Assembly (NCBI RefSeq): GCF_024372745.1
Contig: NZ_VOTZ01000015.1
Location: 1-58,503, forward strand
DNA length: 58,503 bases
DNA from: Methanocalculus taiwanensis
GTDB taxonomy: Archaea; Halobacteriota; Methanomicrobia; Methanomicrobiales; Methanocorpusculaceae
Reading direction: 5' to 3'
The notes below the pieces were generated by a model that did not search any database, was not told the origin of the DNA, and was given only the letters and a program-made list of their open reading frames with translations. Each line of letters begins with the position of its first letter. Position 1 is the stretch's first letter. Made by a program: the position numbers and the translations under genes. Positions 40,682-45,846 of the stretch are shown in pieces.

Positions 40682-41320
40682 ATGCAGACCTCTCTTGAGG
40701 AAGATATTCTTGAAGATATTCTGGCGATTCAGAAGGATGGCGATACACCTACGCTGGAGAAGATCGCTTCCCGCCTCTCTCTTCCTGTAGAAACGATCTT
40801 ACCTGCACTTGAGCGATGCAGGGATTCAGGTCTTATCTCATCCAACTCTCCCTCACTGTGGACGCTCACAAAAGAAGGAAGGAAAACTGCTGAGGTGATC
40901 GCACGAAGGCATGCCGTCCTCGCATGTTTCCTCACTGAAAAACTCGGGCTTGAAGCAGAGGCTGCGTCCCGGGAGGCATGCCTCCTTGAACACGATATTT
41001 CAGAGGAGACAATCGATGCCCTTGATTCATTCATGCAATCCCCGGACAGGCAGTGCCGGGGGCATGGCAGGCGCCATTGCGCCCACTATTCTGAATCTGC
41101 CCCTTTGATCAACTTTTCGGAAGGTGAAACCCTGATCGTCACCTTCGTCCGCTGCCCGGGCCGCCACCGTAGGCTGATTGATCTCGGTGTCATCGAAGGC
41201 GAACCGATCATTATCAGGAGAAAGCTCCATAATGAAGCAGTCGTCATCTCGGTGAAAGGATGCGATATTGCACTCTCCCCGGAGATAGCATCCGAGATCA
41301 ATGCCCGGAGAAGAATATGA
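40682..41320 (+). CDS. DtxR/MntR-type metal-dependent regulator fused to FeoA domain
   Basis: The 212-residue product has a winged helix at residues 1-65 (TLEKIASRLSLPVETILPALERC), a DtxR dimer and metal-binding region at 70-130 (RRHAVLACFLTEKLG, EACLLEHDISEETIDAL), a Cys/His patch (QCRGHGRRHCAHY), and a FeoA SH3-like domain at about 142-212 (IDLGVIEGEPIIIRRK). It probably senses Fe(II) and represses the operon. It overlaps feoB by ATGA, so it is both regulator and partner of the ferrous iron transporter. Confidence 0.88.
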   Translation: MQTSLEEDILEDILAIQKDGDTPTLEKIASRLSLPVETILPALERCRDSGLISSNSPSLWTLTKEGRKTAEVIARRHAVLACFLTEKLGLEAEAASREACLLEHDISEETIDALDSFMQSPDRQCRGHGRRHCAHYSESAPLINFSEGETLIVTFVRCPGRHRRLIDLGVIEGEPIIIRRKLHNEAVVISVKGCDIALSPEIASEINARRRI

Positions 41321-43179
41321 CCGGACGCCTATCCTGCGCGCTCATCGGAAACCCGAGTGTGGGAAAATCACTCATCTTTAATCACTTAACAGGGCTTGGT
41401 GTCGAAGTCAGCAATTACCCCGGAACCACTGTCGATCTGATGCGTGGAAATGTCTGTTTCCAGCGTGAGATAATTGAGCTTGTCGATCTCCCCGGCATCT
41501 ACTCCCTTGAAGGGGAATCCGAAGAGGAGACGCTTGTCAGAGGAATTCTGAATCGGAAGGAGGTGGATATCCTCATCGCCGTTTTGGATGCCACTCACCT
41601 TGAACGGAACCTCTATCTCCTCCTCCAGGTTGCAGAATATAAAATCCCGATGGTCGTCGTCCTGAATATGGTCGATGAGGCTGAGAAGTTCGGGATAGAG
41701 ATCAATTACGATCTCCTCTCTGAGAGGATTGGATCACCTGTTATCCCGACGGTTGCCTCTGAGGGAAAGAACATGGAGGCGATCATCGATGCAGCACGGG
41801 CAAACCCCGCAATTCCATCCATATCTGTTCCCTACGATCATCATGTCGAGGCAGCAGCGCGGAGCCTTTCCAAGATTTATGGTATCGAGAGAAGCTCCTC
41901 TCTTCAGGCCCTCGTACGGCCGGAGGGATCTGATGATCTGGCTGATTCAGCACAGGGGCTTGGATCTGAGATCGAAAAACGTCATAATATGACGCCGCAC
42001 CAGATCATTGCAACCAACCGGCACAACTTCTCCCGTGCGCTTGCAGAGGAGGTAACCGAGCTGCACTCCCGTCCTCCGAGATTTGATCTTGATACCATTC
42101 TGACGCGGAGCTTTCCTGGTATCCCTATCCTGATAGCCATTATCATCGGTATCCTTCTCCTCGTCTTCACCGCAGGCGCTTTTTTTGAGGAGCTGATCGT
42201 CACACTCATCGACACCTATGCAATCGAGCCCTTCCTCGCCCTTGATCTCCCCGGACTTGCATCGGCTGTTGGCCTCTCTCTCATCATTGCTATTCAGGCA
42301 GGCATGGGGATTGCGTTTCCCTATGTCTTCATCTTTTACCTGGTCATCTCAATCATCGAGGACTCCGGGTATCTCACCCGTGCAGCATTCCTCGCAGATC
42401 GCTCGATGCATCGGTTCGGGATGCATGGGCAGGGGATCATCCCGATGGTCCTTGGGTTTGGATGCAGTGTCCCGGCACTGATGAGCGTCCGCCTCCTCGC
42501 CACAAGGAGAGAGCGGATCATCGCCTCGATCCTCGTGACGATGATCCCCTGTTCTGCCAGAACTGTTGTCATATCAGGGATCGTCGCCTCTTTCATCGGC
42601 CTTGCCGCTGCATTCTCCGTCTATGCAATCGTCTTCCTCCTCGTTTTTGCAACCGGGATAGTACTCTCAAAAGTGACGCCCGGCCAGCAGTTCGGGATGA
42701 TCCTCGAGATGTCGGCACTCCGGGTTCCCCGACCCGATATGGTTGTAAAGAAGGCATGGATGCGGCTATCGGAGTTTCTATTCATTGCGATGCCGCTCCT
42801 CCTCATATCCAGTGTCTTCCTTGGGATCTTTGAATATATCGGACTTGTCTCAGCATTCCAGGATATTATCACCCCCTATTCAGAGAGTGTTCTCGGACTT
42901 CCGGGATTTGCCGCTACTGCTCTTCTCTTCGGAATCCTCAGAAAAGAGATGGCATTTGAGACGCTGGCCGTTCTTGCGGGGACTGCCGATCTTGGATCTG
43001 TCCTCTCAAATCTTCAGCTATATATATTCGCTGTCGTCTGTGTCCTCTTTATCCCCTGTATATCGACAATTGCTGTATTAATACGGGAGATAGGGAAAAA
43101 ATGGGCGATACTGGTGTCGTTGTACACAGTCGCCCTCGGTATCATTGTGGGGGCATTGTTAAAAATAGGAATGACATAA
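41317..43179 (+). CDS. feoB: Ferrous iron transporter FeoB
   Basis: The 620-residue product starts at the ATG overlapping the regulator stop. The N-terminal G domain shows G1 GNPSVGKS, G2 region YPGTTVDL, G3 DLPG, and G4 NMVD. A helical GDI-like part follows, then a membrane part of about 8-10 segments containing the gate regions (GFGCSVPALMS, TMIPCSARTVV). It imports Fe(II) across the membrane. The short C-terminus ends shortly after the last membrane helix. Confidence 0.95.
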   Translation: MTGRLSCALIGNPSVGKSLIFNHLTGLGVEVSNYPGTTVDLMRGNVCFQREIIELVDLPGIYSLEGESEEETLVRGILNRKEVDILIAVLDATHLERNLYLLLQVAEYKIPMVVVLNMVDEAEKFGIEINYDLLSERIGSPVIPTVASEGKNMEAIIDAARANPAIPSISVPYDHHVEAAARSLSKIYGIERSSSLQALVRPEGSDDLADSAQGLGSEIEKRHNMTPHQIIATNRHNFSRALAEEVTELHSRPPRFDLDTILTRSFPGIPILIAIIIGILLLVFTAGAFFEELIVTLIDTYAIEPFLALDLPGLASAVGLSLIIAIQAGMGIAFPYVFIFYLVISIIEDSGYLTRAAFLADRSMHRFGMHGQGIIPMVLGFGCSVPALMSVRLLATRRERIIASILVTMIPCSARTVVISGIVASFIGLAAAFSVYAIVFLLVFATGIVLSKVTPGQQFGMILEMSALRVPRPDMVVKKAWMRLSEFLFIAMPLLLISSVFLGIFEYIGLVSAFQDIITPYSESVLGLPGFAATALLFGILRKEMAFETLAVLAGTADLGSVLSNLQLYIFAVVCVLFIPCISTIAVLIREIGKKWAILVSLYTVALGIIVGALLKIGMT

Positions 43180-43192
43180 CACGTAGTATACC

Positions 43193-43903
43193 ATGTACAG
43201 CTACCAGTTCGGTATCCCTGCACTTGACGCTCAGCTCGGCGGGTTGACATCGGGTGCGAATGTACTTATTCTGGCACCCCCGCTCTCAGGTGCCGAGCGG
43301 ATTGCATACAATCTGACCTTTCCGGCAGAAGGTGAGTATTCAGTCCTCCTCTCCACTGATGAACGGGCATCTGAGATATTGAATTTCTTTAAACTGAACG
43401 GAACCGAGAGGAGATCACTTGCAATCATCGATGCGATTACAAAAAGCGATCTGCCGAATGTCCCTGATACCGACCGGATGAAGTTTATTGCAAGCCCGGT
43501 TGACTTAACCGGGATCAGTATCAAGATGAGCAAAATGTTTGCAGGAATCGTAGATGAGAGCCTGAAGAATCCAAAACCAGGCATCTTCCCGCCCCCGATT
43601 CGGTTCTGTGTGAATTCGCTCTCAACATTCCTCATGTACCGGAAACTGGAGGTGATGTACCAGTTCGTCCATGTCATGTCTGCAAAGATCAAGAAGAACG
43701 AGTGGATCGGGCTGTATACCTTAAACAACGAGTCATTTGATGCCCGGACTGTATCTGTTATTAAACAGCTTATGAACGGGGTGGTTGAGGTGAGAGAGGG
43801 GAAAGAGAGTTTTGAAATGCGTGTTGTCGGACTTGGGGGCCGGATGACTCCATGGCTTCCGTATTCATTTGATCTGAATGGGAAACTGGTGGTGGAAGGA
43901 TGA
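43193..43903 (+). CDS. RecA/KaiC-like superfamily protein with degenerate ATP site
   Basis: The 236-residue product starts FGIPALDAQLGGLTSGANVLILAPPLSGAERIAYNL, the layout of RAD55/KaiC-type ATPases (GIPxLDxLLGGGI...GPPGSGKT), but the Lys-Thr of Walker A is missing. The Walker B strand reads RFCVNSLSTFL with Asn in place of Asp. ATP hydrolysis is unlikely, so it may act as a binding or regulatory subunit. It starts 14 bp after feoB and overlaps the next gene by ATGA. Confidence 0.75.
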   Translation: MYSYQFGIPALDAQLGGLTSGANVLILAPPLSGAERIAYNLTFPAEGEYSVLLSTDERASEILNFFKLNGTERRSLAIIDAITKSDLPNVPDTDRMKFIASPVDLTGISIKMSKMFAGIVDESLKNPKPGIFPPPIRFCVNSLSTFLMYRKLEVMYQFVHVMSAKIKKNEWIGLYTLNNESFDARTVSVIKQLMNGVVEVREGKESFEMRVVGLGGRMTPWLPYSFDLNGKLVVEG

Positions 43904-45066
43904 TTTATACTGGAATAGATGCGCTGGACGGATTGCTTGACGGCGGGGTGCCGGATGGAAGCCGGATGCTCTTTGCGATCGAGCCTGAAGCTGATGGGCA
44001 GCATTTCCTGATCACGCTGCTCCATACGGCTGTTGTATCAGGGAAGAAAACACTGGTGATAGCACCTTTCACCAGCAAAGATGCATACTTTGTCGATGTT
44101 GCCTCTCAGAGCCACTACCATCTGGACTGTTATCTCGATCTGATCAGCTTCATCGATCAATCTGATTGCGAAGCGATCACCGCCGCACATCAAAATCGGG
44201 AAGCATGCAGGGCAGCCTGGCAGGATCGGATCAAGGGCATTATCAAAGATGAAGGGATTGACGTGGTCGTTGCATATCTCGATCTCCTCTCGGATTACTT
44301 CGAATTTGCCGGTGCTGTATCTCTCTTTGCGGATCTTAAATCTGAAAAGCCGGTTACTGTTGCATTTGAATTCTTCAACCTCTATGGTGAAGAGATGCTT
44401 CAGGAGCTTCTGAAGGAGACGCCCTTTGATCTCGTCATTAACCTTCAGTCCGGATCCGGTGTCGTCTCATTCTTCAATTATTTCACCGTCCACACAGTAT
44501 CCTGGCTCCCGCTTCCCTCCCGTTCCCTCCCCTATATTGTTACCGAAGGCCATATCGTCCCCTATATCCCAAAGATTGTTGTCACAGGCCCCTCAAACTC
44601 CGGGAAAACAACATTTGTCAAGAACATCTCCGAGAGCGGGATGTCGGTTGACCGGCTCGGCCTTCTTGGCACGCCCACAACCGTTGCCCTTGATATAGGG
44701 CATATGGCAAGCAAGGGCTTTGATATCAATATCTATGGAACACCCGGACAGGAACGGTTCGATCCGATCATACCACAACTTGCACGCAATGCAATGGGCG
44801 TCATCCTGATGGTGGATGTCACCCGCCCTGATCTGATGTCCCGTGCATTGAAGCTGAAGAAAATTGTGGAAGGAAATACTGTTGTTCCGATCATAGTTGT
44901 TGCCAACAAAGCAGATCTCGCCTATTCGGTTACAAAGGAGGAGATTCGTGCTGCTCTCGAAGTCAGGGCAGATACGCCGGTCTACTTCATCTCCGCATTT
45001 GAACGCAGACAATGCCGTGATGTCATCGATTCTATGGTCGATCAGATCACCCGCTTTGAATACTAG
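43900..45066 (+). CDS. RecA/KaiC-like domain fused to MglA/COG2229-type small GTPase
   Basis: In the 388-residue product, residues 1-220 resemble the upstream protein (IYTGIDALDGLLDGGVPDGSRMLFAIEPEAD), again without a Walker A lysine. Residues 222-388 are a Ras-like GTPase: G1 VTGPSNSGKTTFVKN, switch I Thr in GTPTTVALD, G3 YGTPGQERF (no Asp, as in MglA and COG2229), G4 VANKADL and G5 ISAFE. The fusion plus the coupled paralogue suggests a small membrane or filament-associated switch. Function is unknown. Confidence 0.8.
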   Translation: MIYTGIDALDGLLDGGVPDGSRMLFAIEPEADGQHFLITLLHTAVVSGKKTLVIAPFTSKDAYFVDVASQSHYHLDCYLDLISFIDQSDCEAITAAHQNREACRAAWQDRIKGIIKDEGIDVVVAYLDLLSDYFEFAGAVSLFADLKSEKPVTVAFEFFNLYGEEMLQELLKETPFDLVINLQSGSGVVSFFNYFTVHTVSWLPLPSRSLPYIVTEGHIVPYIPKIVVTGPSNSGKTTFVKNISESGMSVDRLGLLGTPTTVALDIGHMASKGFDINIYGTPGQERFDPIIPQLARNAMGVILMVDVTRPDLMSRALKLKKIVEGNTVVPIIVVANKADLAYSVTKEEIRAALEVRADTPVYFISAFERRQCRDVIDSMVDQITRFEY

Positions 45067-45072
45067 ATAACC

Positions 45073-45846
45073 ATGCTGACATTTATTGGACTTGGACTCT
45101 TTGATGAGACCGATATATCATTAAAAGGCCTCTCTATCATCCGTGAAGCTGATGCGGTCTTTCTGGAAACCTACACCTCAAGGCTGATGGGTGCGGATAT
45201 ACCAGCGCTTGAATCACTCTATGGAAAACCTCTCCGTCTCCTCTCCCGCGAGGATGTTGAACAGCACCCCGATCCCATTCTTGATGCCGCTGAGATCGGA
45301 TCTGCTGTCTTCCTTACAGCCGGCGATACGATGGTATCGACTACTCACGCGGATCTCAGAATCCGTGCATCCGAGCGGGGTATTCGTACTGAGATTGTCC
45401 ATGCCGCCTCGATTGCAAGTGCGGTTTGCGGTCTCTCCGGCCTTCAGAATTACCGTTTTGGCAAATCGTGCTCGCTCCCGTACCCGGAAGCCAGATGGAT
45501 GCCCACCACCCCGGTGGAGGTGATCGCAGCCAACCTCTCCCAGAACCTCCACACTCTCGTCTATCTGGATATCCAGAATGAACGGTATATGCGGGTGCCT
45601 GAGGCGATTTGGATCATCGAGGAGATCTGCCTAAAACTGGATGTGACAATCCCTCTCTATGTTGGGATCGCACGGGCTGGTTCTAAGAATCCAATTGTGT
45701 ATGCGGGATCTGCAGACGATCTGAAGTTCGTTGATTTTGGTCCGCCGCTCCATATCCTGATCGTGCCAGCTGCACTCCATATGATGGAGCGGGAGTACCT
45801 GGAGCGTTTTGCTAATCTGACGCCGGGGAATTATCCGATATCATGA
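45073..45846 (+). CDS. dphB: Diphthine synthase
   Basis: The 257-residue product matches the tetrapyrrole-methylase fold of DphB/Dph5: [43 protein letters not shown] and [21 protein letters not shown]. It transfers methyl groups from SAM to the modified His of elongation factor 2 during diphthamide synthesis. It overlaps the DUF357 gene by ATGA and lies 6 bp after the GTPase gene. Confidence 0.95.

Follow-up and report, generated by a model that had tools for sequence, protein, structure and literature searches.

Within the MglA family of Ras-like GTPases, the polarity proteins of group 1 combine a TVPGQ motif with an intrinsic arginine finger, whereas groups 2-5 possess GTPGQ and a threonine instead of the arginine, group 4 being nearly exclusive to methanogens (Wuichet and Sogaard-Andersen, 2014; PMC4316618). 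This classification was limited to proteins of at most 240 amino acyl residues (488 in the MglA clade, 449 of them small), so that fusions of the type described below would fall outside it (PMC4316618). In Myxococcus, Roadblock dimers act on MglA both as GAP and as GEF (PMC11016934). The actinobacterial conservons (CvnA-D) likewise encode a GTPGQ-type GTPase and a Roadblock protein in company with a signalling platform, which is there a histidine-kinase-like protein and not a KaiC-like pair as in the present case. KaiC-like ATPases of archaea, in turn, occur as fusions with signalling domains, ATP-site residues being lost in some members, and inactivated KaiC-like (iKaiC) domains are known in archaeal signalling proteins, the fusion partners named being HalOD1 or REC (PMC5847659).

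Here we describe a locus at which such elements are joined. It is located on the window, i.e., the whole stretch of 58,503 nucleotides (contig NZ_VOTZ01000015.1) that was analyzed, from the 2.34-Mb and 99.9% complete genome of Methanocalculus taiwanensis. Two adjacent genes, called P1 and P2, code for KaiC-like proteins, the second of which is fused to a GTPase domain. In the reading that we prefer, and to which we assign a probability of about one half, their products would constitute a GTP switch on a KaiC-like platform devoid of ATPase function, derived from an ancient cassette of a RecA-like pair, an MglA-type GTPase, and a Roadblock protein, the latter now acting in trans. The features of the locus are as follows.

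41260..43179, + strand: feoB, upstream neighbour of P1 (context only)
43193..43903, + strand: P1, KaiC/RecA-like protein of 236 amino acids, Pfam DUF7504, without Walker A lysine
43274..43300, + strand: degenerate Walker A of P1, APPLSGAER; lysine replaced by Ala34 (43292-43294) in the alignment with GPPMSGKE orthologues
43604..43627, + strand: Walker B region of P1, FCVNSLST; aspartate replaced by Asn141, the position being N or D in relatives inside and outside Methanomicrobiales
43900..45066, + strand: P2, fusion of 388 amino acids consisting of a pseudo-KaiC domain and an MglA-family GTPase
43900..44559, + strand: N-terminal KaiC-like domain of P2, about residues 1-220, without Walker A lysine and Walker B aspartate
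43978..44007, + strand: converted P-loop of P2, IEPEADGQHF (family consensus xxPGVEGxxF), no lysine at the Walker A position
44563..45063, + strand: C-terminal Ras/MglA-family GTPase domain of P2, residues 222-388 (Pfam Ras, 48.5 bits; small_GTP TIGR00231, 52.4 bits)
44587..44613, + strand: G1/P-loop GPSNSGKTT, fitting GxxxxGK[ST]; lysine in 108 of 108 aligned homologues
44674..44694, + strand: G2 PTTVALD, with Thr-Thr and no arginine finger; second threonine in 106 of 108
44734..44751, + strand: G3 YGTPGQ; glycine at the position of Ras Asp57 in 108 of 108, glutamine in 104 of 108
44905..44916, + strand: G4 NKAD, fitting [NT]KxD; asparagine in 108 of 108, aspartate in 103 of 108
45073..45846, + strand: dphB-like tetrapyrrole/diphthine methylase, downstream neighbour of P2 (Pfam TP_methylase, 63.5 bits; context only)

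A coupled pair of KaiC-like proteins

P1 and P2 overlap by four bases in an ATGA, with exactly those ORFs that had been claimed in an earlier inspection of the letters alone (the sequence-only reading), which had also placed the pair correctly between feoB and dphB. Genes on the same strand follow each other in the order DtxR/FeoA - feoB - P1 - P2 - dphB - DUF357, the first of them (40682-41320), directly 5' of feoB, coding for a DtxR-type repressor and a FeoA domain in one protein. As feoB, P1, P2, and dphB share the + strand and are spaced by -4 to +13 nt, they probably form one operon; a scan of this region for promoters and terminators gave no more candidates than shuffled sequences. The pair and its ATGA overlap are kept in all 30 homologous loci of Methanomicrobiales, with intact ORFs at identities of 37-84%. 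This conservation, together with the strong constraint on GTP-site residues, already contradicts the notion of decaying genes without function, which we consider extremely improbable even though in one genome that lacks P2 (G113) the P1 gene (L047:5054-5632) looks truncated and frame-shifted, as if decaying after the loss of P2.

The RAD55/KaiC-type fold that had been proposed for both proteins is borne out by AlphaFold (AF2) models with pLDDT values of 92 for P1 and 90 for P2, RecA-superfamily and KaiC structures being the top Foldseek matches; the poorly modelled stretch of P2 comprises residues 251-260, just before G2. For the P1 model, the best PDB matches are the RecA-superfamily ATPase PH0284 (E 6e-12, TM 0.73) and then KaiC, and a profile of the P1 family finds SSO2452, KaiC, and FlaH, while a PDB search with the single P1 sequence returned a chance match only. 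P1 belongs to Pfam DUF7504 (PF24336; 75.5 bits, above the gathering cut-off of 27) but is tied to P2, and the three further paralogues of DUF7504 detected in the genome display only distant similarity to it. For the P2 model, KaiC is the top fold (E 1.1e-13), and the P2 family profile matches KaiC over residues 2-229 (2.5e-22) and Rab/Arf over about residues 230-386. The P2 sequence of the window alone matches KaiC weakly (E 0.004), whereas P2 homologues reach 2.8e-20. The RecA-like nature of the N-terminal part of P2, on which the proposal of a platform depends, is therefore upheld.

Neither protein possesses the Walker A lysine, as had been noticed before. In P1 of the window, APPLSGAE takes the place of the GPPMSGKE found in orthologues outside Methanomicrobiales, and in P2 EPEADGQHF stands where KaiC has PGTGKT-x-F. 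The absence of the Walker B aspartate had been attributed to P1 alone; P1 indeed has Asn141, but the contrast was wrong, as in the alignment P2 has Tyr126 at this position (Gly, Glu, or another residue in most relatives). Since none of the aligned P2 homologues, from Methanocalculus to DPANN, has a Walker A lysine, the alignments indicate that the KaiC domain of P2 lost its ATP site long ago, whereas P1 appears to be devoid of the lysine only in Methanomicrobiales, the lysine being present in 47 of 49 P1 orthologues outside this order versus 0 of 55 inside, where about ten of the 55 rows are duplicate genomes. Outside Methanomicrobiales, the Walker A of most P1s reads GK followed by Glu/Asp and not by Ser/Thr, so that these proteins may not hydrolyze ATP despite the lysine.

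One might argue that the KaiC-like domains bind ATP through a non-canonical site, which would make the complex a dual sensor for ATP and GTP instead of one built on a dead scaffold. P1 outside Methanomicrobiales retains its lysine, some P1s of Methanomicrobiales retain the Walker B aspartate, and the converted loop xPGVEGxxF is itself conserved across the P2 family, which under this explanation implies that it has a function. However, the lysine is absent from both window proteins and from every Methanomicrobiales homologue, and the Walker B aspartate is absent from both window proteins as well; we regard such a sensor as quite improbable.

The MglA-type GTPase domain of P2

That the second protein carries a complete Ras-like domain was recognized correctly from the letters, as GPSNSGKTT, PTT, GTPGQ, and NKAD are all present. 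At G3, GTPGQ occurs in all 53 P2 homologues outside Methanomicrobiales and in most of those inside, and among the 108 aligned homologues the exceptions are four without the G3 glutamine and four with NKRE at G4. Most of the invariant and near-invariant residues of P2 fall into the GTPase domain, which, judged by its motifs, is predicted to be active as a GTP switch.

The comparison of its G3 with that of the polarity protein MglA has to be abandoned, since the TVPGQ and arginine finger of group 1 contrast with YGTPGQ and PTT in P2. The MglA-MglB systems of Myxococcus and Thermus (group 1) share with P2 a Ras-like GTPase and, in the wider P2 family, presumably the control by Roadblock proteins; they have no KaiC-like partner, and there is no evidence for a role of P2 in polarity. 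G1, the Thr-Thr of G2, GTPGQ, and NKxD are common to P2 and to MglA groups 2-5, especially group 4 of the methanogens, and by these motifs P2 may be placed in the MglA family as a protein of the groups 2-5 type. It differs from these groups by the additional N-terminal pseudo-KaiC domain; with 388 residues and two domains, as opposed to a single domain of at most 240, it is a multidomain relative and not a small GTPase in the sense of PMC4316618. The Roadblock partner known from groups 2-5 is also found in the cassettes of archaea other than Methanomicrobiales, but no Roadblock gene adjoins P2 at the window locus, and while no conserved neighbours were reported for group 4 (PMC4316618), P2 is always accompanied by P1. 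Standalone GTPGQ MglA-like GTPases exist in other Methanomicrobiales families (L140-L147), and neither Roadblock nor P1 adjoins these orphans at the eight Methanomicrobiales loci examined.

Distribution of the fusion and its Roadblock cassette

Full-length P2 is encoded in 33 of 120 Methanomicrobiales genomes, and P1 is present in all 33. Among named relatives with the locus, Methanocalculus chunghsingensis is the nearest, its P2 being 74% identical. A sister genus (17 genomes, apparently Methanocorpusculum) yielded neither P1 nor full-length P2 nor a Roadblock match; as these genomes are small, this joint absence is no more than suggestive. Outside Methanomicrobiales, the full-length fusion is found in Methanosarcinales, ANME-2, Methanoperedens, Archaeoglobi, Methanobacteriales, and Thermoplasmata, and on DPANN and other contigs (Altiarchaeota, Undinarchaeales, Micrarchaeota, and Nanoarchaeota), although many contigs outside Methanomicrobiales are metagenome bins, for some of which the taxon assignment may be wrong. 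The fusion is thus not a peculiarity of one genome but real and widespread, and it is apparently unstudied. Each of the components, namely KaiC-like hubs, inactivated KaiC domains, MglA-type GTPases, and Roadblock partners, is known by itself, whereas we found no paper on their joining in one cassette. The sequence-only reading had considered a GTP switch on a dead ATPase scaffold as undescribed; this is too broad for the scaffold, given the known iKaiC domains (PMC5847659), and seems to hold for the GTPase fusion, as neither fusion nor cassette is described in those parts of the literature on KaiC, Roadblock, and GTPases in archaea that we consulted, which do not include the main KaiC review (mBio 2017, e01959-17).

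Profile searches place P1 beside P2 in 50 of 53 loci outside Methanomicrobiales and a Roadblock gene, identified as such by Pfam, within 1.7 kb in 52 of 53, mostly overlapping or adjoining P2. At the Methanomicrobiales loci the same searches find P1 in 27 of 27 and Roadblock in 0 of 27. The view that a RecA-like platform stands in place of Roadblock is therefore not tenable in general: other archaea have the fusion, P1, and a Roadblock gene, and the Methanomicrobiales locus alone is without the latter. In the P2 tree, the root of which is arbitrary, Methanomicrobiales form a fully supported group on a long stem, apart from all others, a grouping compatible with a single transition. Because all other lineages have Roadblock and the P1 lysine, a loss of both in Methanomicrobiales is the simpler reading, though the arbitrary root proves no older state. 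Distances of P1 and P2 correlate with r = 0.93 inside and 0.90 outside Methanomicrobiales, where shared descent alone would also give high values. In two Methanobacteriaceae bins (L095 and L128), Roadblock-P2 precedes two genes for KaiC-like proteins that have canonical GKS P-loops.

Since P1, P2, and Roadblock are the only genes that remain associated across lineages, the feoB/dphB context carries little functional meaning, and a functional reading of this neighbourhood was discarded, as the neighbours change with the lineage. For the same reason, the housekeeping role in membrane or surface organization that had been suggested is possible, but nothing in the sequence speaks for it. In 12 Methanoculleaceae-like genomes and a few others, P1 is encoded but P2 is not, whereas P2 never occurs without P1 in the 33 Methanomicrobiales genomes. 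At the Methanoculleaceae-like loci L041-L044 and L052, the lone P1 lies between feoB and dphB and is devoid of the Walker A lysine.

These observations bear on another explanation, according to which the work is done by the KaiC-like platform, as part of an RNA or protein modification complex, and the GTPase is an accessory. Elp4-5-6 of Elongator is a ring of catalytically dead RecA folds. A resemblance to it is hinted at by dphB, by neighbours that on inspection of their sequences resemble translation genes in several lineages, by the P1 genes kept without P2, and by a weak match of P1 to PAXNEB/Elp4 (E 6e-4). This match is below the cut-off, however, the best folds being KaiC and archaeal RecA ATPases; the constant neighbours are P1, P2, and Roadblock only, and the GTPase domain, which would be a mere accessory, holds most of the constrained residues of P2. 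A complex of this type therefore seems improbable to us.

If Roadblock has left the cassette, the question arises whether the switch still employs one. Methanomicrobiales genomes with the fusion encode at least one Roadblock protein elsewhere, and in M. taiwanensis there is a single such gene (G000:C20:22865-23203; L138:4851-5225, - strand). The ORF shares one base with a gene for a REC-MetOD2 response regulator (L138:4228-4851, - strand), and this two-gene unit may link phosphorylation to a GTPase. Against the profile of cassette Roadblocks, hhalign gives the protein a probability of 98.8% at 30% identity, a result that any Roadblock might yield. As P2 has the only MglA-type G domain found by searching the genome, this Roadblock protein is a natural candidate and may be the trans partner of P2, although Roadblock genes are also encoded in Methanomicrobiales without P2 and are hence not specific for it.

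Alternatively, the switch might be self-contained and dispense with Roadblock, the fused GTPase having P1 or the pseudo-KaiC domain as its GAP/GEF. The perfect coupling of P1 and P2 at loci that all lack Roadblock would fit, and the loss of the P1 lysine in the same clade is compatible with a changed role. Yet the Roadblock genes are retained elsewhere in the fusion-bearing genomes, that of the window's genome has no other MglA-type partner, and no catalytic residue for a GAP/GEF role was identified in P1, which leaves a self-contained switch unlikely.

A putative GTP switch in archaea

In the preferred reading of a GTP switch with Roadblock in trans, the homologous KaiC/RecA-like domains of P1 and P2 would hold the two proteins together in a stable complex. 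By homology, KaiC-like domains are expected to assemble with each other, and a mixed assembly of P1 and P2 is likely because their domains are homologous and their genes adjacent and translationally coupled. Having lost ATPase work, these domains would now serve as an assembly platform, from which the GTPase, a switch of the GTPGQ type, would recruit or release an effector upon GTP binding and a change of conformation. The pair would have descended vertically from a three-gene cassette consisting of a P1 with Walker A lysine, a P2 whose KaiC domain was already dead, and, as regulator of the GAP/GEF type, a Roadblock protein. In the branch of Methanomicrobiales, the cassette would have lost the Roadblock gene and P1 its lysine, leaving the GTPase as the only nucleotide switch in the version of the window, with the sole Roadblock protein of the genome, encoded beside REC-MetOD2, as candidate regulator in trans. 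By analogy to MglA and KaiC-like proteins, the output might be that a surface or assembly machine is controlled in response to signals, which is a guess. Some weight against this model comes from the P1 genes that persist alone between feoB and dphB, as they imply some role for P1 that is independent of the fused GTPase.

More broadly, and with more reserve, we suggest an ancient archaeal complex, extending from DPANN to ANME, in which a KaiC-like pair, one member having a P-loop that was early converted to a conserved non-ATP motif, would form a ring or dimer displaying MglA-type heads under Roadblock control and which in Methanomicrobiales would be purely GTP-driven. KaiC-like proteins have been proposed as archaeal signalling hubs, and Roadblock proteins and Ras-like GTPases have a central part in how eukaryotic membrane traffic evolved. 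A cassette in which these two kinds of system are physically linked provides a concrete and testable complex for archaeal proteins of no assigned function, and the branch of Methanomicrobiales, which has retained the GTPase but has neither the P1 lysine nor the adjacent Roadblock gene, represents a natural experiment. Comparing the form of Methanomicrobiales with that of other archaea would tell which part drives the switch. If the existence of an ancient complex under Roadblock control proves to be true, KaiC and Ras/Roadblock signalling would be joined in one machine.
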